Shown here piece by piece: positions 180 through 22,476 of a DNA stretch of 22,746 nt. Each line of letters opens with the position of its first letter. Positions within the stretch are counted from its first letter, which is position 1. The notes beneath the pieces were generated by a model. That model was given only the letters and a program-made list of their open reading frames with translations, did not search any database and had not been told where the DNA came from. Origin of the DNA: a virus. The stretch covers positions 1-22,746 of the IMG/VR virus record IMGVR_UViG_3300030108_004773; one strand, written 5' to 3'. Made by a program: the position numbers and the translations under genes.

Positions 180-454
180 ACAAATACGAATTATTAGCGT
201 CTGAGATAGGAAAACTTACAGCAGAAAAAAATAAAGCGTATGGTGATTCTTTTGGAAAAGCCTCAGACATCCTACAGATACTCTACCCAGATGGTATTTC
301 ACCAAGTTCATATGATGACGCCCTTGCCATTACAAGAGTTATCGATAAATTATTTAGACTGGCAACAAGAAAAGATGCCTTCGGTGAAAGTCCATGGAAA
401 GACATTTGTGGCTATGCTTTATTGGGCATGGCAAATGATGAGGAGAATAAATGA
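176..454 (+). CDS. DUF1599-like (nucleotide modification associated domain 1-like) small protein
   Basis: This 92-residue protein starts at ATG 176, five bases after a GGAG ribosome site; a TTG fifteen bases earlier in frame is less likely. The pattern is NKAYGDSF near residue 23, ISPSSYDDALAITRVIDKLFRL in the middle and a late CGYALLGM helix. This recalls the DUF1599/Nmad1 family, short helical phage and bacterial proteins with a K-x-YG box, an arginine/lysine-rich helix and a terminal 'GYA' helix, thought to be linked to nucleotide metabolism. It overlaps the GMPR/IMPDH gene by four bases, so a nucleotide-related role fits the context. The family match is from memory of the pattern. The sequence shows no catalytic residues that would prove an activity. 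Confidence 0.6.
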   Translation: MNKYELLASEIGKLTAEKNKAYGDSFGKASDILQILYPDGISPSSYDDALAITRVIDKLFRLATRKDAFGESPWKDICGYALLGMANDEENK

Positions 455-1464
455 AAGAAGCACTAACTTATGATGACGTACTTTTAACACCACAGTATTC
501 AGACATTAAAAGCAGAAAAGAAGTTAATTTAATTTCTGCTCTTGATGCAAGCTTGATTTTAGATCTTCCGATTATCTCATCCCCTATGGATACAGTAACA
601 GAATCAGAAATGGCCTATACTATGGACTCTCTCGGTGGTCTGGGTATTATTCATCGCTACAATTCAATAGAGGAGCAGGCTGGTTTAGTTGCAGAAGTCA
701 TAAGTGCTGGGGCTACAAAAGTTGGAGCAGCCATTGGAATTAGTGGCGATTATTTTGAAAGAGCACAGACACTTGTAGAGAATGGTGTGAGTGTTCTTTG
801 TGTTGATGTCGCCCATGGGCACCACATTTTGATGAAAGATGTCCTTGGTGTTCTTAAGAAATCATTTGGTGATTCAGTTCACATTATGGCTGGAAATGTT
901 GCGACACTAGAAGGAATAAATGATTTAGCTCAGTGGGGCGCCAATTCTGTGCGCTGTAACATCGGCGGCGGATCTATTTGTTCTACAAGGATACAAACAG
1001 GACATGGCTTGCCTGGACTGCAAACTATTTTTGATTGTGCTCAAACTGAGCATGATGTTGCTATTATCGCAGATGGTGGTATTAGAACTGCTGGCGATAT
1101 TGTAAAAGCTATAGCCGCTGGCGCTGACTTTGTTATGCTAGGTTCACTCCTCGCAGGGACAGACGAAACACCAGGAGAAGTTGTACAGCTACCAAGTGGA
1201 ATGAAAAAGCGTTACCGTGGAATGGCCTCTAAAGATGCTCAAATGGATTGGCGAGGTCGGTATAGTTCTAACGAGGGTGTAAGCACTTTCATTGATTACA
1301 AAGGTTCAGTCGTGGATATCCTAGAGGATCTCCGTGGCGGTGTGTTGTCTGGCTTATCTTATTCGGGATGTAGAACTATCAAAAGATTACAAACGACAGC
1401 CCAATGGACAAGGCAGACAACTGCCGGTTTGTCTGAAAGCAAAACTCACATCTTGTCTAAATGA
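451..1464 (+). CDS. GMP reductase / IMP dehydrogenase family enzyme lacking CBS domains
   Basis: This 337-residue (beta/alpha)8-barrel protein starts with the family signature [10 protein letters not shown]. It has SSPMDTVTE (43-51), GGLGIIHR (62-69), the catalytic loop GGGSICSTR with Cys177 and Thr179, then the phosphate-binding segment [10 protein letters not shown] (207-216) and MLGSLLAG. No CBS pair is inserted, and the length matches GMP reductase (about 345) rather than IMPDH (about 490). The mobile flap reads GRYSSNEGV: Glu275 is placed like the GMPR catalytic Glu, but Arg270-Tyr271 looks like the IMPDH Arg-Tyr dyad, so the direction of the reaction (IMP to XMP, or GMP to IMP) is uncertain. 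The usual GPGS is GGGS here. ATGA overlaps on both sides place it in a translationally coupled operon. A role in guanine nucleotide supply or salvage is inferred. Confidence 0.93.
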
Positions 1465-14107: not shown

Positions 14108-15025
14108 ATGATGAACTTAGGATATGCTTGTTTAAATATGTCCCTGTCCAACCGTAAGAAGTCGGAGAGGATTACCACTAACCGCTCTATGATTCGACGC
14201 ACGTTTGATCAGAAAGGAGTTGACTACGCTTCAGAGTTAGCACTGCAAAATTGTAAAGACCTTTACTCTATCTTACAGTGGAACGAGGAACACAATATTA
14301 AGTTCTTTCGTTTGTCTTCAGAGTTCTTTCCATGGGCATCCGAGTATGACATCGAAAGCCTAAAAGACTATGAAAAGATTATGTATTGGTGCAAGAAATC
14401 AGGTGACTATGCTCGTGAAATGGGACACAGGTTGACTAGTCACCCCGGACCATTTAACAAACTTACAAGTCCAAAAGAACATGTAATAAAGAATACTATT
14501 ACAGACTTGGAAATACATGGTAAGTTTTTTGATATGTTAGGTTTACCCCGAACACCGTATGCTAAGATTAATATCCATGTCGGTGCGCACTACAACAACA
14601 AAGCAATGGCGCTCGAAAATTTTTGTGTCAACTTTGAGCGTCTATCGCCTGCCGTACAGTCTCGTCTTACCGTCGAGAACGACGACAAGGCATCGCTTTA
14701 CAGCACAAAAGAATTATACGACGAAGTTTATAAACGCATCGGCATACCTATCGTGCATGACGTACATCACCACAAGTTTTGTACTGGTGGCATAGATGAC
14801 GAAGAAGCAATGCTTACTGCTGCAATGACGTGGGGTGATGTGAAACCTGTGATTCATTATTCACAGTCACGCGCAATCGAACACAACAATGTACGCATTC
14901 GAGCAAACGCACACTCAGATTCTTACTGGGAACCGGTATACACTCACGGACTTGACGTTGACGTTATGCTAGAATGCAAGCATAAAGAGATTGGATTGTT
15001 TAAGATGCGAGAGTTATTGGGATGA
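14108..15025 (+). CDS. uvsE: UV damage endonuclease (UVDE)
   Basis: A complete 305-residue TIM-barrel UVDE, which nicks DNA 5' of cyclobutane dimers and 6-4 photoproducts. The N-terminal strand LGYACLNMSL is followed by TTNRSM. Metal ligands can be traced as His112 (TSHPGPF), His157 (INIHVGAHY), Glu190 (TVENDD), Asp218 and His221 (HDVHHH), His250 (VIHYSQ) and Glu289 (MLECKHKE), with Lys291 in the position of the active-site lysine. The start is ATG 14108 or the adjacent ATG 14111. No later ATG would keep the first strand, so the message is probably leaderless. The gene ends in ATGA overlap with the next one. A sunlight-exposed habitat fits the gene. Confidence 0.96.
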   Translation: MMNLGYACLNMSLSNRKKSERITTNRSMIRRTFDQKGVDYASELALQNCKDLYSILQWNEEHNIKFFRLSSEFFPWASEYDIESLKDYEKIMYWCKKSGDYAREMGHRLTSHPGPFNKLTSPKEHVIKNTITDLEIHGKFFDMLGLPRTPYAKINIHVGAHYNNKAMALENFCVNFERLSPAVQSRLTVENDDKASLYSTKELYDEVYKRIGIPIVHDVHHHKFCTGGIDDEEAMLTAAMTWGDVKPVIHYSQSRAIEHNNVRIRANAHSDSYWEPVYTHGLDVDVMLECKHKEIGLFKMRELLG

Positions 15026-15234
15026 TGCTCAATAAGGGTGACTTGGTTTACTATACTGGACCTGCGTTGGCTCGTAAGAAAGATGGATTTAGTTTGTCCG
15101 GTTCTGCTATGGGAGTAGTGCTTGATCCATCTGCTGGCGACGAGGGTGAAAGAGTAGAAGTGCTCTGGACACACATGGATAAAACATGGGTCGGTCCACA
15201 GTACTGGTTAAAACTAGTAGTGGAGAGATATTAG
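15022..15234 (+). CDS. GDLV-type SH3-like small protein (copy b)
   Basis: This 70-residue protein starts at ATG 15022 (overlapping the uvsE stop) or ATG 15025. Its core is NKGDLVYYTG, then AMGVVLDP, VEVLWTHMDKTWVG and WLKLVV. It shares the G-D-L-V / G-V-V / V-x-W / L pattern of the small family described for the gene at 12721. The stop TAG overlaps the GTG start of the VOC gene by one base. Confidence 0.82.
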   Translation: MMLNKGDLVYYTGPALARKKDGFSLSGSAMGVVLDPSAGDEGERVEVLWTHMDKTWVGPQYWLKLVVERY

Positions 15235-15518
15235 TGAAAATTGATCACGTTGCTATACAAGTGGAAAACCCTAGACTTGCTGCAGATTGGTACGTCGAGA
15301 ACTTTGGAGCAGAACTATTATATGTTGATGACTCCTGGGGCTTTGTTCAGTTTGAGAATGTGAAGTTGGCATTCGTAATAAAAGAACAACACCCGCCACA
15401 CTTTGCTTTTGAAGTGGAAAATTTAGATGGTGGAATTTTACACAGAGATGGGTCTAGGTCTGTATACAAACAAGATCCGTGGGGTAACGCATTTGAATTG
15501 GTGAAATATGAAAGATAA
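15234..15518 (+). CDS. Glyoxalase/VOC superfamily protein
   Basis: This 94-residue protein starts at GTG 15234, six bases after GGAGAG. The more upstream ATG at 15186 lies inside the previous gene and would add residues not seen in the family. It begins IDHVAIQVENP and ends DPWGNAFELVKY, a typical vicinal oxygen chelate module. His5, His56 (PPHFAFEV) and Glu88 (FELV) are placed as metal ligands. It is shorter than the usual 110-130, so loops are trimmed. The reaction is unknown; family members include glyoxalases, dioxygenases and antibiotic-resistance proteins. It overlaps the following DCC-family redox gene by 11 bases. Confidence 0.9.
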   Translation: MKIDHVAIQVENPRLAADWYVENFGAELLYVDDSWGFVQFENVKLAFVIKEQHPPHFAFEVENLDGGILHRDGSRSVYKQDPWGNAFELVKYER

Positions 15519-15843
15519 AGTTTACTATGATGAAAATTGTTATGTGTGTTCACTGGAAATAAATGCCATAAGAACCCGAGGCGAACGATGCGGTATAGAG
15601 TTTATTGATATTAGCGCGGACAACTTTAATCTTGAGGGTGACTATGATACAGAAATGGTTGGAGAGTTTGAAGGCAAACAAACAATAGGCGCCGAAACAT
15701 TCCGTCAAATGTATCACAAGTTAGGGTTTAAACGTTCAGTTGCGTTCAGCAGACTACCTATTATAAGGCAGTTGTTTAACGGAGGATACTGGGTATTTGC
15801 TCATTGGATTAGACCTAACTTACCCAAAAAGAAAACTAAATGA
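15508..15843 (+). CDS. DCC family (DUF393) thiol-disulfide oxidoreductase-like protein
   Basis: A 111-residue protein with YYDENCYVCSLEIN: a C-x-x-C pair at 11 and 14 after the first strand, as in the DCC family, where the signature is usually D-x-x-C-P-x-C. Later parts match too: IEFIDISADNF, then AFSRLPIIRQL and a C-terminal WVFAHWIRPNLPKK segment. Members are predicted thiol-disulfide oxidoreductases. The ATG at 15508 lies inside the VOC gene and the stop overlaps the next ATG as ATGA. A redox or detoxifying role with the VOC protein is suggested by coupling only. Confidence 0.88.
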   Translation: MKDKVYYDENCYVCSLEINAIRTRGERCGIEFIDISADNFNLEGDYDTEMVGEFEGKQTIGAETFRQMYHKLGFKRSVAFSRLPIIRQLFNGGYWVFAHWIRPNLPKKKTK

Positions 15844-16106
15844 TAGTAGATCAAGATTATACACCAACAAAAAAAGTTTGGATACCAAACGATATCAAGA
15901 ACAGTGGAGATATTCTCAAATGGATAGAGACGGCACCTAACAAAGAAGTGATAGGTTGGATATCCATTGGAGAGGGTTTAAAGGTTTTTACAATCACACA
16001 ATCAAATCGATACCTTTGGAAAGATATAGTAAGTGAAATGAGAGCACACGAAGCCTATCTTGTATTGGAACAAACAAAGTTAGTAAAGAAAATAGTTGAG
16101 TCTTAA
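15840..16106 (+). CDS. Hypothetical protein
   Basis: This 88-residue protein starts at ATG 15840, overlapping the DCC gene by four bases. It reads as alternating strands and helices (TPTKKVWIPNDI, ILKWIETAPNKEVIGWISIGEG, VSEMRAHEAYLVLEQTKLVKKI). I see no known motif, cysteine pair or membrane segment. It is probably cytoplasmic and co-translated with the VOC/DCC pair. Confidence 0.8.
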   Translation: MIVDQDYTPTKKVWIPNDIKNSGDILKWIETAPNKEVIGWISIGEGLKVFTITQSNRYLWKDIVSEMRAHEAYLVLEQTKLVKKIVES

Positions 16107-16137
16107 TTAAATTTAAATTAACATGGAGTATGGCAAA

Positions 16138-16236
16138 ATGGGTGAACAGATAGGAGTACAGTTACTTTTACTTTTTTTATTTGGTTTTTTTATATTATGG
16201 TTGGTAGGTGATAATGATGAAGATGACGAACGCTGA
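16138..16236 (+). CDS. 32-residue single-span membrane peptide
   Basis: ATG 16138 follows GGAG by nine bases. The product starts MGEQIGVQ, has one strongly hydrophobic span (LLLLFLFGFFILWLV) and ends with a very acidic tail (GDNDEDDER). The ending overlaps the next gene by about 20 bases in another frame. A one-span peptide with a charged tail is typical of small phage membrane proteins. The function is not known. Confidence 0.6.
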   Translation: MGEQIGVQLLLLFLFGFFILWLVGDNDEDDER

Positions 16237-16684
16237 TTACTTTAAAAAATGGAACCCTGATATAGATTACCGCCAAAATCCACATCTTTATAGAGTTGGT
16301 CGAGGTCAGCAAGGTGTACTTATCTGTGAACCTTATAAATCGGAGATATGCGCTCACTGGCGATTCAAAACGCCACCGGAAGCGCAAATTAGTAGTCAAC
16401 AAATATTAAAAATGTTCTATGATTTTCTGGACATAAATGATTTTGTTGGTGCAGATATGGCGAAAAAGTATTTGCACATGGGTTTTACTCGCGCCAGACG
16501 CTACGCTAATCACAGAGATGGCAAAAAGTACAATGATGACGGTACGATAATACCACAAGAACCTGATGCGCTTACATGCGATAAGTCTATATCTGCTCGT
16601 ATTTTCTATGCTTGCTGGAAAGAAGCAAGAGAGAATGAAAAATACTTGACACTTAAAAAAAATCATAAGAAGATGCATGAATGA
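16217..16684 (+). CDS. DUF4385-like protein
   Basis: This protein of about 155 residues has strong conserved blocks: YFKKWNPDIDYRQNPHLY, RVGRGQQGVLICEPYKSEI, HWRFKTPPEA, then DFVGADMAKKYLHMGFTRARRYANH and IFYACWKEAR. These match the DUF4385 family, which is found in bacteria and phages and has no established activity. The start may be ATG 16217 (six bases after AGGTG), 16214 or GTG 16208. The R-rich FTRARRYANH helix hints at nucleic-acid contact, but that is speculation. Its stop overlaps the following GDLV protein as ATGA. Confidence 0.88.
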   Translation: MKMTNADYFKKWNPDIDYRQNPHLYRVGRGQQGVLICEPYKSEICAHWRFKTPPEAQISSQQILKMFYDFLDINDFVGADMAKKYLHMGFTRARRYANHRDGKKYNDDGTIIPQEPDALTCDKSISARIFYACWKEARENEKYLTLKKNHKKMHE

Positions 16685-16899
16685 AGGTTGGTGATCTCGT
16701 TCAATACATAAGAGATATGCCAACGTCATTTGTTGAGTTTCAAAACGGTGTAAGGCAAAACGATATTGGTTTAATCACTGATGCGCTAGCAAATGGAACA
16801 ACTGTAAGAGTAAAGTGGTTAAAAAGTAATGATGAGTTCTGGATGGGTAAGAATCATTTAGAGGTTATAAGTGGAAGACAAGAAAAAGAAAACAATTGA
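16681..16899 (+). CDS. GDLV-type SH3-like small protein (copy c)
   Basis: This 72-residue protein starts at ATG 16681 by ATGA coupling. It reads MKVGDLVQYI, DIGLITDAL, TTVRVKWLKSNDEFWMG and HLEVIS, the clearest example of the family pattern (G-D-L-V, then G-L-I, then V-K-W, a late Trp and L-x-V). A small beta barrel is predicted. The next gene begins within its last 29 bases. Confidence 0.85.
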   Translation: MKVGDLVQYIRDMPTSFVEFQNGVRQNDIGLITDALANGTTVRVKWLKSNDEFWMGKNHLEVISGRQEKENN

Positions 16900-17374
16900 T
16901 TATATAAATGAAGTTCTTAGACCACCCAGGGAAGAGTTTGGCGGTTTACCTGTTTGCCCATTTGCCGGTCCAGAGTTGGACAATGGTAAATTAATGATTG
17001 ATATTATTAGTGAACAAAAAAGTTTAGATTTTTTGCTTGATGAATATAAAAACTCAAAATACAATAGTGCCCTATTCATTCTGGAATTACCGGATGGAGA
17101 AACTCTTTCAAAAGACGAGACAAAGGAATTTCAAGTGTTTGTTAATAAAGTTATAAGGTACAAAGGTTATAAAGATATCAGGACGATATGCTTTAATCCT
17201 CGTGATTCTGTATCAATAAATGGCTTTAATCCGAGAGGAAAAGCACCTTATTTTCTAATTAATATAGCAGGCAGGAAAGAACTGCATAAAGCACATAAGT
17301 CCTTGACAAAGACAAGTTACTATGATAACATGGATGTCAAGTACAAGAGTTTTTTGAAAATTGGAGGTAAATAA
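16871..17374 (+). CDS. Conserved hypothetical protein (CPFA / AHKSLTKT motifs)
   Basis: This 167-residue protein starts at GTG 16871 after GAGG, inside the previous gene. Notable blocks are RPPREEFGGLPVCPFAGPEL near the start, a central strand-helix segment ALFILELPDGETLSKDE, then ICFNPRDSVSINGFNPRGKAPYFLINIA and AHKSLTKTSYYDNM. I recall relatives in marine T4-like contigs and some bacteria, always unannotated. The Cys-Pro-Phe-Ala site, paired with a conserved Asn/Arg loop, could be catalytic, but I can name no reaction. It is followed by a zinc-ribbon gene that starts at its stop codon. Confidence 0.82.
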   Translation: MEDKKKKTIDYINEVLRPPREEFGGLPVCPFAGPELDNGKLMIDIISEQKSLDFLLDEYKNSKYNSALFILELPDGETLSKDETKEFQVFVNKVIRYKGYKDIRTICFNPRDSVSINGFNPRGKAPYFLINIAGRKELHKAHKSLTKTSYYDNMDVKYKSFLKIGGK

Positions 17375-17571
17375 TGGCTGAATGTGTTTCTTGTGGAGAT
17401 AGTTTTAATCCAAAGAGATATCGTCTTGGTTATAGAACCTGTCTGGAGTGTGGTCAAACCCTGGCACTTCAAGAAAAAGTAAGTAAGTCTCGTCGCACTG
17501 CCCCCGCGTTTAACAAGGGTGCTTATCAATACATTACCAATATGGAAATGACAAAGAGCATTGGACGATGA
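17374..17571 (+). CDS. Zinc-ribbon small protein
   Basis: This 65-residue protein has two knuckles, Cys4-x2-Cys7 and Cys23-x2-Cys26 (ECVSCGD and TCLECGQ), separated by FNPKRYRLGYR, the design of a treble-clef or zinc-ribbon fold like DksA/TraR fingers. The rest (SKSRRTAPAFNKGAYQYI) is basic. The start at 17374 follows GGAGG and overlaps the previous stop by one base. It may bind RNA polymerase, ribosome or nucleic acid. From memory this is a common marine T4-like small gene. The stop overlaps the next ATG. Confidence 0.85.
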   Translation: MAECVSCGDSFNPKRYRLGYRTCLECGQTLALQEKVSKSRRTAPAFNKGAYQYITNMEMTKSIGR

Positions 17572-17768
17572 AAGAAGGCGATCTAGTACAACTTTCCAGT
17601 TATGGAAACAAACTAAAATGTTTAAAAGAGTATAAAAACTGTGTTGGGGTGATATCAATACACATCCCAATGAGTAAAAGAATGAAGTATAGAGTTGATT
17701 GGTTTATCAACGGGAAAGTAAAACGGGAAAGACACACAAGAAAAGATTTGAAAAAAGTAAAAAAGTAA
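17568..17768 (+). CDS. GDLV-type SH3-like small protein (copy d)
   Basis: This 66-residue protein starts at ATG 17568 by ATGA coupling and is strongly basic. It reads MKEGDLVQLSS, CVGVISIHIP, YRVDWFINGKVKRER and DLKKVKK. The G-D-L-V / G-V-I / V-D-W pattern places it in the small family. The many lysines and arginines fit nucleic-acid binding better than in its paralogues. It directly precedes the candidate structured RNA. Confidence 0.82.
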   Translation: MKEGDLVQLSSYGNKLKCLKEYKNCVGVISIHIPMSKRMKYRVDWFINGKVKRERHTRKDLKKVKK

Positions 17769-17782
17769 ATGCGTATATTTCG

Positions 17783-17910
17783 TGGAATGGTCGCAACACA
17801 CACTTATGGGTTTGACCTTCAATGGTTGTAGTGAAGGGTGCGTGAGTCGCACAGTTAAAATCAACCTAGTCCTCTCCCTGGACAAAGAACAAACAGGGGG
17901 GATCATTCCA
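17783..17910 (+). ncRNA. Candidate structured, possibly pseudoknotted RNA or cis-regulatory element
   Basis: The gap 17769-17932 has no gene but folds well by eye. A 10-bp closing helix pairs 17783-17792 (TGGAATGGTC) with 17901-17910 (GATCATTCCA), with one G-U. Inside it, 17874-17880 pairs with 17894-17900 (CTCCCTG/CAGGGGG, one U-G), stacked directly on the closing helix. CCTTCA at 17816-17821 pairs with TGAAGG at 17832-17837. GTGCG at 17838-17842 pairs with CGCAC at 17848-17852. GGTTG (17824-17828), in the loop of the CCTTCA hairpin, can pair with CAACC at 17862-17866 and make a pseudoknot. A T-run follows the closing helix. The gene at 17933 has no obvious ribosome site. I do not recognise the class; a riboswitch-like element, a processed small RNA or an attenuator are all possible. 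Confidence 0.6.
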
Positions 17911-17932
17911 ATTTTTTATTTGACTTTTTAAT

Positions 17933-18145
17933 ATGAACAAAGTAGATTATAAATATAAACTTGGTGACTTAGTAGTGACCTCTGCATATTATAGAAACTC
18001 TCCACAATACTTTGGTATTGTAGTAAAAAGAGAGAGGTTCAGTGGTATAAAAAGGTTTCTTTATCAAGTTAACTGGTTGAAAACTGGTTTCGATAATCGT
18101 TGGATACATGAAGACGATATTGTGAAGGTGAATGATGAACTTTGA
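17933..18145 (+). CDS. GDLV-type SH3-like small protein (copy e)
   Basis: This 70-residue protein starts at ATG 17933, about 22 bases after the structured RNA, with no visible Shine-Dalgarno sequence. It reads YKLGDLVVTSAYY, YFGIVVKRERF, YQVNWLKTGFDNRWIHEDDIVKV, the same strand order as its paralogues. The lack of a ribosome site directly behind a structured RNA raises the possibility of translation control by that RNA. Its 3' end overlaps the next gene by about 14 bases. Confidence 0.82.
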   Translation: MNKVDYKYKLGDLVVTSAYYRNSPQYFGIVVKRERFSGIKRFLYQVNWLKTGFDNRWIHEDDIVKVNDEL

Positions 18146-18449
18146 AGTTGGACAACTAGTAACAGTTTGGGTTGACGACCTAGACCCTATACATCGTAAA
18201 AGATGGAAGGGTAAATATGGTCTTATAGAAGAGTTAATGTTTACGGAGCAAAGCAATCGAGATGGTAAACCTAGTTTTATAAAGGTTTTCTTCCCTGGGT
18301 TGCAAGTATACAACAACGTAGAGTTTATTCCAGAAAGAATAAGATTAGTAGAAGACGAAAAACTAAACGCCGAGTTGATATCAAAAAAAGAACATGACAG
18401 ATTTTTAGAAAATGAGCAAGATTTTCTAAATTCTTTAGGAAATGATTGA
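18132..18449 (+). CDS. GDLV-type SH3-like protein with C-terminal helix (copy f)
   Basis: This 105-residue protein starts at ATG 18132 or 18135 after GAAGGTG. The barrel part reads FEVGQLVTVWVDD, YGLIEELMF, FIKVFFPGLQVYN and RIRLVEDEK; the family G-D-L-V becomes G-Q-L-V and the V-x-W strand is V-F-F. It carries an extra charged helix at 80-105 (KKEHDRFLENEQDFLNSL) that the other copies lack. It ends next to the methylase gene. Confidence 0.78.
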   Translation: MMNFEVGQLVTVWVDDLDPIHRKRWKGKYGLIEELMFTEQSNRDGKPSFIKVFFPGLQVYNNVEFIPERIRLVEDEKLNAELISKKEHDRFLENEQDFLNSLGND

Positions 18450-18457
18450 GAGGAAGA

Positions 18458-19375
18458 ATGAAAAAATATAAAACCCCACTGCGCTACCCAGGTGGTAAAT
18501 CGAGAGGGACAAAAAAGTTTTCCCCTTCTTTTCCAAAACAATTTAGTGAGTTTAGAGAACCATTTTTAGGTGGCGGTTCTGTTGCAATTCACGTAAGTAA
18601 AACCTATCCTGATGCAAAAGTCTGGGTGAATGATAAGTATTTTAACCTATACAACTTTTGGATGCAGTTGCGAGACAATGGAGATAAACTATATAAAACT
18701 CTTTTAGATATCAAAATGCCATTGGTTTACGTGTCGAAACCATTAAGGAAAGAAAAAGTCCCCAAAGAGAATTGGGATGTTGATATTATTAATAAAATAC
18801 AAAAGCATCGCGATCTTTTTAACAAAGCAAAAAAAGATATCAATACTGTTGACGACTTTACAAAAGCAGTTTATTTTTATATCTTGAACAAGTGCAGTTT
18901 TTCAGGGCTTGGTGAGAGTAGTTCATTCTCAGAGCAGGCATCCGAACAGAACTTTTCCCTCAATGGTATCAATGCTTTACCTTATTATTCTAAACTTATT
19001 AAAAACTGGAAAATAACTAATATTGATTATGAAGAGGTAATGAATACAAGTGGTGATAATTGCTTTGTTTTTCTCGACCCTCCTTATGATATTAAAGATA
19101 ATTTGTATGGTAAAAATGGAAACATGCACTCTGGTTTTGACCACATGAGATTCTATGAAGACGTTTCTAGGTGCTCTCACGATTGGATGATTACCTATAA
19201 TTCCAATGAGATACTAAAAAAACGGTTCTCTGATTACTTTTTTAACGATTGGGACTTGACTTATACGATGAGATCGACTAATATGTATGTCGATGCTCAA
19301 AAAGAGCGCAAAGAATTATTGATAACAAATTACGAGAGAGAGGTAGACGATGCTAGACCTAAGCAAAGTAGTTAA
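18458..19375 (+). CDS. DNA N6-adenine methyltransferase, Dam (D12) class
   Basis: The start is ATG 18458, four bases after GAGAGGA; TTG 18446 in frame is unlikely. The 305-residue protein has the D12-class order: TPLRYPGGKSR (6-16) for AdoMet, EPFLGGGSVA (34-43, motif I), the NDKY segment (58-61), then a target-recognition region and catalytic DPPYD (207-211, motif IV). The enzyme would transfer a methyl group to adenine N6 in a short site. GATC is the usual Dam-family target, but the sequence alone does not prove specificity. Its last 26 bases overlap the nuclease-like gene at 19350, so the two proteins are translationally coupled. It may protect phage DNA from that nuclease or from host enzymes. 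Confidence 0.94.
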   Translation: MKKYKTPLRYPGGKSRGTKKFSPSFPKQFSEFREPFLGGGSVAIHVSKTYPDAKVWVNDKYFNLYNFWMQLRDNGDKLYKTLLDIKMPLVYVSKPLRKEKVPKENWDVDIINKIQKHRDLFNKAKKDINTVDDFTKAVYFYILNKCSFSGLGESSSFSEQASEQNFSLNGINALPYYSKLIKNWKITNIDYEEVMNTSGDNCFVFLDPPYDIKDNLYGKNGNMHSGFDHMRFYEDVSRCSHDWMITYNSNEILKKRFSDYFFNDWDLTYTMRSTNMYVDAQKERKELLITNYEREVDDARPKQSS

Positions 19376-19871
19376 TTGGGAAAAAGTTTTCCGCGTTATT
19401 GATGGTACACAAAGTCTAAAAAGAAACCAGACGCGCCCACTTCGCACAGAGATTATCGAAATGTCGATTGATAAATATAGTGGTGGGAAATTAAAGTATG
19501 TTGGTGACACTGCTGACGGGATGGATTTTGATGGCGTTGACGGCATTCGATATGAATGCAAACTCCAGAATAAGATTTTTCAACCAAGAACGCTTCACAC
19601 TGCAAAGGTTACTTTAAAAAATCATCGCTCTAAAAAGCAAGAAATCAAACAAACGTTTGATAAGATGATTTTTATTGACGAAAAACAGCGTAAGGTTGGC
19701 GTTGTTGACTATGACAACCTCAAAGTACAAAACCTTGATGCCGTTGCAAATTGTTGGGTTGATGATTGGCGTACAAAAGTTGATATGATTGCTGAAAATG
19801 TGTCTAAAACACAATCAAACTCTGTAAACCTTGAAAAAATCATCTTTGATAAGATCAAAGAGGTTATTTAG
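19350..19871 (+). CDS. PD-(D/E)XK restriction-endonuclease-like protein
   Basis: This 173-residue protein starts at ATG 19350 after GAGAGAGAGG, inside the methylase gene. A likely catalytic core is Glu34/Glu37 in the first helix, then GDTADGMDFDGVDGIRYECK, with Asp59 (or Asp61) followed ten residues later by Glu69-Cys-Lys71, the D-(x)n-E-x-K arrangement. Downstream strands (FDKMIFIDE, KVGVVDYDNLKVQ) complete an alpha/beta fold of the right size for a small homing or restriction nuclease. I recall similar unannotated proteins in marine T4-like contigs. Pairing with the overlapping methylase suggests restriction-modification or degradation of unmethylated host DNA. Activity is unproven, and the spacing could also fit a related repair nuclease. 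Confidence 0.75.
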   Translation: MLDLSKVVNWEKVFRVIDGTQSLKRNQTRPLRTEIIEMSIDKYSGGKLKYVGDTADGMDFDGVDGIRYECKLQNKIFQPRTLHTAKVTLKNHRSKKQEIKQTFDKMIFIDEKQRKVGVVDYDNLKVQNLDAVANCWVDDWRTKVDMIAENVSKTQSNSVNLEKIIFDKIKEVI

Positions 19872-20255: not shown

Positions 20256-20332
20256 GCTCCCGTAGCTCAGTTGGTTAGAGCAAGCGCCTCATAAGCGCCC
20301 GGTCGTAGGTTCAAGTCCTACCGGGAGTACCA
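20256..20332 (+). tRNA. tRNA with CAT anticodon (Met elongator or Ile2)
   Basis: A complete cloverleaf: acceptor GCTCCCG / CGGGAGT with G1-U72, D-arm GCTC/GAGC, anticodon stem with a mismatch at 27-43, loop CTCATAA, T-arm GTAGG/CCTAC, discriminator A and encoded CCA. It lacks the initiator features (no GGG/CCC in the anticodon stem). The T-arm side GGTC-x2-AGG-TTCAAGTCC resembles E. coli Ile2 (CAT with modified C, reading ATA), whereas the D-arm equals elongator Met. The amino acid is therefore uncertain. It alone among the four tRNAs here has an encoded CCA. Confidence 0.93.
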
Positions 20333-20344
20333 AAGGAGATTACT

Positions 20345-20494
20345 ATGTTTTTTGAAACACCAATATCAGACTGGACACAGATAGCAGTTTTTCTATTGTG
20401 CGCCACTATTTCTATACCCCTCGCCACAATTGGAGCGATTAAACTTTTCATAGCAGTTCAAAATAAATTTCTTGACAAACAAAAAAAAGATTAA
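20345..20494 (+). CDS. 49-residue membrane protein
   Basis: ATG 20345 lies six bases after AAAGGAG. The product MFFETPISDW... has one long hydrophobic helix (IAVFLLCATISIPLATIGAI) and a short basic tail (FLDKQKKD). The stop is at 20492-20494. The bases coding FLDK contain the -35 box of the next promoter. It follows the tRNA on the same transcript. Function unknown. Confidence 0.7.
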   Translation: MFFETPISDWTQIAVFLLCATISIPLATIGAIKLFIAVQNKFLDKQKKD

Positions 20495-20500
20495 TATAAT
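20472..20500 (+). promoter_or_regulatory. Consensus sigma70 promoter before 20534
   Basis: TTGACA at 20472-20477, 17 bp, TATAAT at 20495-20500, both perfect. The -35 lies in the codons Leu-Asp-Lys of the upstream 49-residue gene. Confidence 0.9.
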
Positions 20501-20533
20501 ACCTATATCAATGTTTTTCCAAAAGGAGAGGAT

Positions 20534-20716
20534 ATGAATAAAGCAATGATTTCACGGACGTGTTTTATCGCGTCTCTAGTATCTGTAGCATTTTCTATTG
20601 CTACTTGGACGCTCGTAGGAGATGGCGATCCTGCCCATGCCGAACGATTCGGTATCTTTGTTGGACTTTGGGCACCAACATTAATGGGAATGGCAAATCA
20701 TTTCAAAGGAGATTAA
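20534..20716 (+). CDS. 60-residue two-span membrane protein
   Basis: ATG 20534 follows AAAAGGAGAGG. Two hydrophobic segments (about 8-26 and 39-56, FGIFVGLWAPTLMGMAN) are separated by a short loop with DGDPAHAERF. I recall the FGIFVGLWAPTL motif in small marine phage proteins. It probably spans the inner membrane twice. Its role is unknown. The gene is followed after three bases by another small ORF. Confidence 0.82.
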   Translation: MNKAMISRTCFIASLVSVAFSIATWTLVGDGDPAHAERFGIFVGLWAPTLMGMANHFKGD

Positions 20717-20719
20717 AAA

Positions 20720-20881
20720 GTGAACCTTTATGAATTTGTCATGATGTTCTTCTACGTTTCTCTTTGTACTGGTATTTTATCTATCGGGTGTCACTACACC
20801 GAAAAGATGAGAGAGCAAGATTCAAAGGCAAGAAAATTAGAAGTTGTTATGACTAATTTAGAAAACCCCCTTGACAAATAA
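20720..20881 (+). CDS. 53-residue membrane-anchored protein
   Basis: GTG 20720 is eight bases after AAAGGAG. The product has an N-terminal hydrophobic helix (FVMMFFYVSLCTGILSIG) and a charged C-terminal helix (EKMREQDSKARKLEVV), ending NPLDK. The last codons CTT GAC AAA TAA carry the TTGACA box of the hsp20 promoter. Function unknown. Confidence 0.7.
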   Translation: MNLYEFVMMFFYVSLCTGILSIGCHYTEKMREQDSKARKLEVVMTNLENPLDK

Positions 20882-20900
20882 AATAAGTTTATTATATTAT
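20871..20900 (+). promoter_or_regulatory. Sigma70-type promoter for hsp20
   Basis: TTGACA at 20871-20876. The -10 can be TATATT (20893-20898, 16-bp spacer) or TATTAT (20895-20900, 18-bp). The predicted start at about 20904-20906 coincides with the first base of a strong hairpin. Confidence 0.75.
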
Positions 20901-20903
20901 ATG

Positions 20904-20936
20904 GACTGTTACCACCCAGAGTAGGGAGTAACAGTC
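20904..20936 (+). other. 5'-end hairpin of the hsp20 message
   Basis: GACTGTTAC (20904-20912) pairs perfectly with GTAACAGTC (20928-20936), 9 bp, with an inner CCC/GGG helix and an AGAGTA loop. The stem begins where transcription should start and lies 14 bases before the AAAAGGAG ribosome site, which it does not cover. This fits a 5' mRNA-stabilising hairpin better than a ribosome-site-blocking thermometer. Confidence 0.65.
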
Positions 20937-20965
20937 TAACTCGCTTATAAAAGGAGAAAAATATT

Positions 20966-21400
20966 ATGACAAGTATTATTAAGCACCACCCAAGTCTATT
21001 GGGTAGAAATGTTATTGACGATGTGTTCGACTCTTTCTTTGTGGACTTTCCTCGTCATCTAAAACAAACAACACAAGGTTATCCAGTTGCAGATATTTAT
21101 CGTAATGACGATGGTAGCACTGTAATGGAATTTGCCCTTGCCGGTTTCAGTCGAGAGGAACTGAATATTGATATCCAACCGGACAAGCGAAGCATCACTG
21201 TATCAGCAGAAAATAATGTTGATAATGATGATGGTCCTGCTCAACGTAGGATTGCACGTCGTTCATTTACGAAGACATATGTAAACTACGATAACAACCT
21301 TGACCTTTCAAACACTTCCGCTCATTATGAGAATGGTTTACTTACAGTAACCGTTCCTCAACGTGCAGAAATGCAACCCCTTTCAATTTCAATCTCCTGA
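20966..21400 (+). CDS. hsp20: Small heat shock protein (Hsp20 / alpha-crystallin family)
   Basis: This 144-residue protein starts at ATG 20966 after AAAAGGAG. The alpha-crystallin domain spans about 38-130: YPVADIYRNDDGSTVMEFALAG, then REELNIDIQPD, RSFTKTYVNY and the signature ENGLLTVTVPQ. The C-terminus has an I-S-I-S variant of the I-x-I motif that docks dimers into oligomers. It holds unfolding proteins in an ATP-independent way and may hand them to GroEL, which this phage also encodes. The family is common in cyanophages and other marine phages. It is followed by a GC-rich hairpin terminator. Confidence 0.96.
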   Translation: MTSIIKHHPSLLGRNVIDDVFDSFFVDFPRHLKQTTQGYPVADIYRNDDGSTVMEFALAGFSREELNIDIQPDKRSITVSAENNVDNDDGPAQRRIARRSFTKTYVNYDNNLDLSNTSAHYENGLLTVTVPQRAEMQPLSISIS

Positions 21401-21415
21401 TTTTGTTTATCTCCA

Positions 21416-21447
21416 AAGCGGGGTGGATTTTCTGCCCCGCTATTCTT
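21416..21447 (+). terminator. Terminator after hsp20
   Basis: AGCGGGG (21417-21423) pairs with CCCCGCT (21435-21441), with loop TGGATTTTCTG, followed by ATTCTT. The T-run is short and merges with the TTGACA box of the next promoter, so termination may be partial. Confidence 0.65.
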
Positions 21448-21474
21448 GACAAACATAAAATATAAAACTAATAT
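21446..21474 (+). promoter_or_regulatory. Sigma70-type promoter before 21482, leaderless
   Basis: TTGACA at 21446-21451, 17 bp, TAATAT at 21469-21474. The predicted start is at 21480-21482, at the ATG of the next gene. It is built like the uvsE promoter, with the same TAATAT box. Confidence 0.7.
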
Positions 21475-21481
21475 ATTAAGT

Positions 21482-21730
21482 ATGGAGATTGGAGAGTTGG
21501 TAGTCTGGAGAACTCAAGTAAGTGTTTGGAAAGACTCTAATCAAATAGAATACATAACAAAAAAATACGTTGGATTGTTAACTCGTATCTTGAAAGTTGA
21601 TATTCAAGATGAGGAACTTTTAGAGATAAAAACTTTCAAAGGTGAGACTATTTTAGCACCGAGAAGCGAGTGTTATTTGTGGTCTTGCCCTAAGAACCCT
21701 GGTTGTTTTTGCGGAGCGTGCCACCCATGA
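21482..21730 (+). CDS. GDLV-type small protein with Cys-rich tail (copy g)
   Basis: This 82-residue protein starts at ATG 21482, immediately behind the promoter and without a ribosome site. An in-frame TTG at 21446 lies inside the -35 box and cannot be used from this promoter. The first part reads MEIGELVVWRTQ, YVGLLTRIL, LLEIKTFKG, as in the small SH3-like family. The tail is cysteine-rich (ECYLWSCPKNPGCFCGACHP: five cysteines in the last 20 residues) and may bind a metal. The stop overlaps the next ATG as ATGA. Confidence 0.75.
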   Translation: MEIGELVVWRTQVSVWKDSNQIEYITKKYVGLLTRILKVDIQDEELLEIKTFKGETILAPRSECYLWSCPKNPGCFCGACHP

Positions 21731-21951
21731 AAGTCGGTGATTTAGTTAGATTAAACAATATCGGATGCTATCATCCAGACGATGAATACCTCGCGTTTGG
21801 TGTGTTGCTAGAAATAGAGAGGGAACGCTACGATATTGGCGAGGGTCCGATATTAAGAGATGAGGGTTGTCACATTCGATGGTCCAATGGAACAACCACG
21901 GTTGAACCAATACAATTTATAGAAAAAGTATCTGCCGATGTGGTGAAATAG
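21727..21951 (+). CDS. GDLV-type SH3-like small protein (copy h), 3' end overlapping tRNA-Leu
   Basis: ATG 21727 overlaps the preceding stop (ATGA). The 74-residue protein reads MKVGDLVRLNN, FGVLLEIER, CHIRWSNGTTTVEPIQFIEKV. It has the family pattern, with I-R-W in the third strand. Its last six codons (21934-21951, Asp-Val-Val-Lys-stop) lie inside the 5' half of tRNA-Leu, so RNase P processing of the tRNA would remove the end of this message. Confidence 0.82.
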   Translation: MKVGDLVRLNNIGCYHPDDEYLAFGVLLEIERERYDIGEGPILRDEGCHIRWSNGTTTVEPIQFIEKVSADVVK

Positions 21952-22018
21952 GTAGACACAACAGACTTAAAATCTGTTGAGCAATTTGCTCGTACCGGTT
22001 CGAGTCCGGTCATCGGTA
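21934..22018 (+). tRNA. tRNA-Leu (TAA anticodon)
   Basis: An 85-base class II tRNA: acceptor GCCGATG/CATCGGT, anticodon stem ACAGA/TCTGT with loop CTTAAAA (TAA, reading TTA/TTG), a long variable arm (GAGCAATTTGCTC), T-arm ACCGG-TTCGAGT-CCGGT, discriminator A. No CCA is encoded. It overlaps the end of the upstream protein gene by 18 bases. It decodes a codon favoured in AT-rich genes. Confidence 0.95.
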
Positions 22019-22031
22019 CTAATTATTTTAA

Positions 22032-22103
22032 TGCACGGTAGCACAATGGCAGTGCGCTCGGCTGTTAACCGAGACGTTGTAGGTTCGAGTCCTACCCGTG
22101 CAG
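22032..22103 (+). tRNA. tRNA-Asn (GTT anticodon)
   Basis: A 72-base cloverleaf: acceptor TGCACGG/CCGTGCA (7 perfect pairs), D-arm GCAC/GTGC, anticodon stem CTCGG/CCGAG with loop CTGTTAA, T-arm GTAGG-TTCGAGT-CCTAC, and discriminator G as usual for tRNA-Asn. No CCA is encoded. It is probably co-transcribed with tRNA-Leu, 13 bases upstream. Confidence 0.95.
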
Positions 22104-22126
22104 TCAACAAACGATAGGAGAGATGG

Positions 22127-22363
22127 TTGGGTAAACTCACAGCGATTCAATGTATAGAGTGCAAAGATATACTATATAAACAAGATTTTGTTCCAAGCAT
22201 TGGAGAGCAAAGGTTCGCAACCTGTAATTGTGGGAACATACAAGTAGGTACGAAATACCTTGAAGGTAGTCATGTACCCTGGTATGTTACCGTACATTTT
22301 AGAGATTCTAGTCCCCACTTTTTTCAAACCGAAGAGAGGCGAGAAAAAGTACTTGACAAATAA
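22127..22363 (+). CDS. Small Cys-pair (zinc-finger-like) protein
   Basis: This 78-residue protein starts at TTG 22127, six bases after AGGAG. The nearer ATG at 22123 stops after three codons. Cys9-x2-Cys12 (IQCIECKD) and Cys33-x-Cys35 (ATCNCGN) probably bind one zinc. The layout resembles DUF7695-type small phage proteins as I recall them (IRCKKC ... CSCG ... YL). It ends KVLDK, and the codons for LDK contain the -35 of the tRNA-Arg promoter. Confidence 0.72.
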   Translation: MGKLTAIQCIECKDILYKQDFVPSIGEQRFATCNCGNIQVGTKYLEGSHVPWYVTVHFRDSSPHFFQTEERREKVLDK

Positions 22364-22381
22364 TAAAAAATAAAATAGAGT
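22353..22381 (+). promoter_or_regulatory. Sigma70-type promoter for tRNA-Arg
   Basis: TTGACA at 22353-22358, 17 bp, then TAGAGT at 22376-22381, a weaker -10. The predicted start at about 22388 is six bases before the tRNA. Confidence 0.6.
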
Positions 22382-22393
22382 AAAATGAAAAAC

Positions 22394-22467
22394 GCGCCCG
22401 TAGCTCAGTTGGATAGAGCATCTGCCTTCTAAGCAGAGGGTCACAGGTTCGAATCCTGTCGGGCGTA
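22394..22467 (+). tRNA. tRNA-Arg (TCT anticodon)
   Basis: A 74-base cloverleaf: acceptor GCGCCCG/CGGGCGT, D-arm GCTC/GAGC, anticodon stem TCTGC/GCAGA with loop CTTCTAA (TCT, reading AGA/AGG), T-arm ACAGG-TTCGAAT-CCTGT, discriminator A. No CCA is encoded. AGA is a rare codon in many bacteria but frequent in this AT-rich DNA, so the gene may compensate for host tRNA supply. Confidence 0.95.
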
Positions 22468-22476
22468 CTTTGTGGG

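Follow-up and report, generated by a model that had tools for sequence, protein, structure and literature searches.

Between two very short genes of a phage genome lies a region of ~128 bases that raises two questions: does it encode a structured RNA, and what may such an RNA do? The region (17783-17910, + strand) is part of a 22,746-nucleotide stretch of DNA, here called the window, which belongs to the 26,257-base virus record IMGVR_UViG_3300030108_004773. It sits between genes encoding proteins of 66 and 70 amino acids (aa) (Table 1). The original prediction drew five helices by eye in this region, including a loop-to-downstream pairing that could form a pseudoknot, and described it as rich in G and C, followed by a T-run, and placed ahead of a gene lacking a Shine-Dalgarno (SD) sequence. 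These local features are all present. The G+C content is 47.7% compared to 38% for the window and 33-35% in the flanks, and the T-run, read as a U-run in the RNA, directly follows the element. The start codon of gene 17933 is positioned 22 bases past the closing helix P1, and an SD sequence is absent before it in all four phages described below; at least a loose SD-like match is found at 21 of the 29 gene starts checked in the window.

Three homologous regions were found in other IMG/VR phage contigs, each between the same two flanking genes. One (L003, IMGVR_UViG_3300025828_000016) was reached via a relative of the downstream methyltransferase, and two (L092, IMGVR_UViG_3300030110_004345, and L093, IMGVR_UViG_3300030117_006560) via a relative of a 167-aa protein encoded at 16871-17374. 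The L092 contig carries a T4-type Gp23 capsid gene, and L092 and L093 are the closest pair by sequence identity. Together with the window, these regions form an alignment of four sequences (n=4), all close relatives. Scanning 2.9 million viral contigs with the conserved strands, the helices, and the neighbor proteins returned the same three contigs as the only true matches, no further member was present among 50,697 phage records, and a covariance model run over 46 loci and 41 whole viral records of relatives recovered the known members only. A blast match in S-SRM01 (L002) lies inside a lipoprotein-like gene and shows no structure, while a short match on a bacterial contig (L091) lacks the rest of the element; both were considered chance. 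Weak model matches (e.g., L162, L169, and 21378-21498 on the minus strand of the window) either miss parts of the fold or were selected by pattern and were likewise rejected.

Table 1 Features of the RNA element and its flanking genes, as positions in the window.
Feature	Position	Strand	Remarks
Upstream gene, 66 aa	17568-17768	+	3' end 14 bases ahead of the element
Structured RNA domain (whole element)	17783-17910	+	Four aligned homologs, consensus-fold z -5.9
P1 5' strand, closing helix	17784-17792	+	9 bp conserved, no breaks
UAUGGGUUUGA	17805-17815	+	Invariant in 4/4, mostly unpaired in the proposed fold
P3 5' strand, hairpin with knot strand in its loop	17816-17821	+	
PK1 loop strand GGUUG	17824-17828	+	Two of five pairs doubly compensated, all paired
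P3 3' strand	17832-17837	+	
P4 hairpin GUGCG-UGAGU-CGCAC	17838-17852	+	Paired in 4/4; one one-sided change (G-C to G-U)
PK1 downstream strand CAACC	17862-17866	+	
Tentative extra hairpin, 5' strand GUCC	17869-17872	+	Pairs with 17880-17883
P2 5' strand	17874-17880	+	Stacks on P1 via continuous 3' strand
Tentative extra hairpin, 3' strand GGAC	17880-17883	+	
Conserved A-rich loop AAGAACAA	17885-17892	+	
P2 3' strand	17894-17900	+	
P1 3' strand	17901-17909	+	U-run directly after
U-run, terminator-like tail	17912-17917	+	Present in 4/4 although indels occur between it and P1
Downstream gene, 70 aa, SH3/Tudor-like barrel	17933-18145	+	No SD; candidate regulated gene

Conservation of the fold in four phages

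Positions 17783-17910 encode a conserved structured RNA on the + strand, consisting of a closing helix (P1), a second helix stacked on it (P2), two hairpins (P3 and P4), and a long-range pairing (PK1). All five helices pair where the original prediction had placed them, and across the four sequences, 97.9% of the base-pair cells of the five helices and one tentative 3-bp stem stay paired, compared to 39-51% when the partners are slid. The covariation that the original prediction proposed to look for is found as well. Five pairs change on both sides, two of them in PK1, and the covariation score was reached by none of 500 shuffles of these four related sequences, a test that ignores their kinship.

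PK1 stands out most: the window and L092 both have GGUUG:CAACC, L003 has GAUUC:GAAUC, and L093 has GGUUC:GAACC. As L092 and L093 are each other's closest relatives, the G-C/C-G swap in PK1 suggests at least two events. In an exhaustive list of 74 stems that pair in all four phages, PK1 alone has two double changes, and P1 and P2 rank next. In 24 of 300 shuffles, some stem with two double changes appeared, though PK1 had been named beforehand from one sequence. In P1, the pair 17784:17909 changes from G-C to A-U in L093, accompanied by two one-sided (G-U) changes elsewhere in the helix. The closing helix was originally given 10 bp, and while these bases pair in the window, the outermost pair 17783:17910 is kept in only two of the four phages, leaving a conserved P1 of 9 bp. 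In P2, 17877:17897 changes from C-G to U-A in L092 and L093, and 17880:17894 is either G-C or G-U. Five pairs of P3 are invariant and its end pair is broken in L003, which is neutral evidence without covariation support.

Folding energies agree with these changes. The single-sequence fold reaches -41.7 kcal/mol (z -2.6 against dinucleotide shuffles, of which 2 of 200 were as good), and the RNAalifold consensus reaches -39.2 compared to -19.2 ± 3.4 for column shuffles (z -5.9, 0 of 300), while the antisense consensus fold is only -24.6. Thus, neither a loss of pairing among homologs nor an energy on par with shuffled sequence, the two outcomes that would have spoken against the fold, is seen. 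In addition, conservation ends sharply at P1, as 10 of the 14 spacer bases (17769-17782) are variable compared to 27% inside the element. No other stretch of the neighborhood comes close to the variability of this spacer, which runs from the upstream stop codon to P1.

Could the conserved bases instead belong to a short overlooked gene? A frame, ATGGGTTTGACC, starting at 17806 is open in all four phages for 38-42 codons. Yet, its variable columns number 8, 11, and 5 at codon positions 1, 2, and 3, the reverse of coding, whereas the flanking upstream genes display an excess at third positions (5/5/16 and 15/9/26). The frame also lacks an SD sequence, and the changes fall on helix partners, so a gene here is very improbable, in agreement with the view that the region lacks one. 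An open reading frame on the minus strand (17655-17906) is interrupted in L003 and was rejected.

Another explanation is that the element stimulates recoding, with an in-frame slippery run at the end of the upstream gene and the knot promoting -1 frameshifting. The run A AAA AAG/AAA TAA (17755-17768) lies directly before the stop codon and is kept in all four phages. However, conservation is absent from the -1 frame, whose stops lie in different places, the 17 bases to P1 exceed the usual spacers, and a Lys-rich tail alone explains the slippery run, making recoding the least probable of the explanations considered.

A likely pseudoknot and unpaired strands

The pseudoknot proposed from the single sequence is supported on one side. 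PK1 is backed by covariation, but its crossing partner P3 is nearly invariant and lacks such support. If P3 does not form, PK1 may simply be nested around P4 as an ordinary helix, and the energies of the two arrangements are ~0.5 kcal/mol apart. A true pseudoknot in which P3 crosses PK1 is therefore likely rather than proven, as P3 hardly varies. The minimum free energy fold contains a different helix (17807-17815 with 17861-17868), pairing GGGUUUGA with the 3' strand of PK1, but it displays no compensatory change and one pair is broken in two of the four phages, leading to its rejection.

A further 4-bp hairpin (GUCC/GGAC) is paired in all four phages and includes a U-A/U-G/C-G change, although one such stem is within chance. 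Tentatively, it would either combine with P2 into an H-type pseudoknot or take the place of P2 transiently. Finally, the invariant strand UAUGGGUUUGA may be a binding or tertiary-contact site, judging from its conservation.

Known RNA classes and the neighboring genes

The element is a conserved structured phage RNA of a kind absent from Rfam. None of the 4227 families of Rfam 15 matches it, in line with the original impression of an RNA of no recognized class, and searching the region alone with E up to 10 gave only two weak partial matches, far below their cut-offs. In riboswitches of the SAM-I/SAM-IV type, a closing helix encloses a first hairpin whose loop pairs after the second hairpin, while the last hairpin is stacked on P1. 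The element shares this helix architecture, which serves as a lead only, yet it has no Rfam match and its 23-base strand from P1 to the first hairpin is much longer. Among documented kinds, manA (RF01745) and wcaG (RF01761), riboswitch candidates of marine cyanophages, come closest (PMC2864571). Like the element, they are structured RNAs of T4-like marine phages found in front of genes, and the pseudoknot of manA has been drawn with a question mark (PMC2864571). However, neither covariance model matches the element, even when the region alone is searched under permissive filters, and no sugar or photosynthesis gene directly follows it.

The protein encoded downstream, at 17933, has no match in Pfam, PHROG, or PADLOC. 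Its predicted model is a small barrel of moderate confidence (pLDDT 73), which appears to resemble SH3, Tudor, and PWWP folds as well as many unnamed phage proteins. Several very short proteins (15022, 16681, 17568, 17933, and also 21703) have a GDLV motif near their start in common, and the motif suggests that those encoded at 15022-18449 and at 21703 form a repeatedly duplicated SH3-like phage family.

The arrangement of RNA and small gene is reminiscent of type III toxin-antitoxin systems (ToxI and relatives), where a pseudoknotted RNA is followed by a terminator and a small gene (PMC5086642). The layout here is the same, with a probably pseudoknotted RNA, a terminator-like tail, and a small gene, so that the RNA could be an antitoxin and gene 17933 its toxin. 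Yet, tandem repeats of ~35 nt are missing, the only repeat being an A-rich one of 8 bases at 17751-17769. Nor does the protein look like a toxin of this type: besides its lack of PADLOC and Pfam matches, its predicted fold is SH3/Tudor/PWWP-like, and there is no ToxN among its best 50 PDB matches. Such a system is accordingly very doubtful here.

Several other features of the neighborhood may be mentioned. A promoter-like match, TTGACT-17-TAnATT (17920-17948), is kept in all four phages and overlaps the start of gene 17933, and transcription from there would start within this gene. An adenine methyltransferase gene and the next gene, encoding 173 aa (18458-19871), are found in the window and L003 but are absent at that place in L092 and L093, showing that the element does not travel with them. 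The 167-aa protein (16871-17374) has no assigned function; in the more distant phages L095 and L096, its gene is close to an IMP dehydrogenase-like gene, and the IMP dehydrogenase gene of the window (451-1464) is 15 kb away from it. Host-like genes are abundant in the window (451-22468), including those for IMP dehydrogenase, ClpP, GroEL, UvdE, fatty-acid hydroxylase, glyoxalase, and Hsp20, and four tRNAs are found at 20256-22468.

A possible structured terminator or free-standing RNA

While the structure is seen to be conserved, its function has to be inferred, and the original prediction offered a riboswitch, an attenuator, or a processed phage RNA. The structured RNA with a P1/U-run layout is common to all four phages, among which neither a conserved antiterminator nor another conserved alternative helix was found. 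Therefore, a riboswitch is unproven; the same result separates the element from attenuators and counts against regulated termination in cis, while favoring a free-standing RNA. Gene 17933 offers no hint of a ligand or gene class either, as its SH3-like product is an unnamed protein.

The reading tentatively preferred here is a cis-acting structured terminator of the attenuator type at the end of the upstream transcript, whose core would gate P1 and the U-run before the SH3-like gene. As the U-run follows P1 in all four phages, P1 probably doubles as an intrinsic (Rho-independent) terminator. It resembles such terminators in that a helix is followed at once by a U-run, but differs in the folded domain, 108 bases long, that its stem would enclose. 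A loop of this size is beyond a terminator scan that considers loops of 3-8 only and lists none here, so that termination is read from the layout. In this model, the core, compact and probably pseudoknotted, would be the first part to fold, drawing both strands of P1 together. P1 would then zip onto P2 while the U-run leaves the polymerase, and transcription would stop. Read-through into gene 17933 and the genes behind it would occur when the core folds late or is bound by a ligand or protein.

Termination in cis agrees with the covariation in P1, P2, and PK1, with a sense strand that folds far better than the antisense, and with a U-run that abuts P1 in each of the four phages while the intervening bases differ. 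It also fits the edge of conservation at P1 and the short distance to a start codon that has no SD sequence. In step-wise folding predictions, P1 displaces an upstream hairpin (17770-17795) only once its 3' strand has been made; this competing hairpin includes bases of the hypervariable spacer and lacks conservation in the other three phages. On the other hand, the RNA is better conserved than gene 17933, which also fits a free-standing RNA, and shared gene order among four closely related phages is weak evidence from synteny.

Would the insert need to matter at all? If the insert were accidental and the element a plain intrinsic terminator, nothing beyond P1, P2, and the U-run would be of importance, and P1 and the U-run are indeed conserved. 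However, the PK1 pairing survives two double changes, and P4, UAUGGGUUUGA, and AAGAACAA are near constant next to an outside spacer that can vary freely, which makes an accidental insert improbable.

A more serious contender is a free-standing or processed phage non-coding RNA, where P1 and the U-run form the 3' end, the fold protects the RNA, and gene 17933 is a mere neighbor. Such an RNA might act in trans, its target being a protein or RNA of the host or the phage. The limits of conservation match P1 and the U-run, predictions for the window have P1 formed at all times (pair probability ≥0.97 inside the helix), and the invariant UAUGGGUUUGA and the A-rich loop AAGAACAA could serve as sites of interaction. 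However, no promoter was detected ahead of it, as the 14-base spacer is hypervariable and the nearest upstream promoter-like match on the + strand is at 17303-17331, and the identical gene order in all four phages gives no sign of independence. A free-standing RNA is thus a possibility to be taken seriously, and the cis-acting structured terminator is placed only slightly ahead of it, the two readings being close.

A bolder and rather unlikely version of termination in cis is that the element represents a new class of sensing RNA in T4-like marine phages, in which the closing helix of a pseudoknotted receptor is itself the terminator and no separate antiterminator exists. If true, sensing of a ligand or protein would decide whether P1 zips before the polymerase leaves the U-run.

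To our knowledge, descriptions of structured RNAs from marine phages are few. Here, a fold was predicted from one sequence alone, and compensatory changes in phages that its author had not seen bear it out. The element is compact and conserved, with sharp boundaries, and at 128 nt small enough to be probed, crystallized, and tested in a reporter. Such work would tell whether knotted RNA serves phages as a means to meter or shield transcription.
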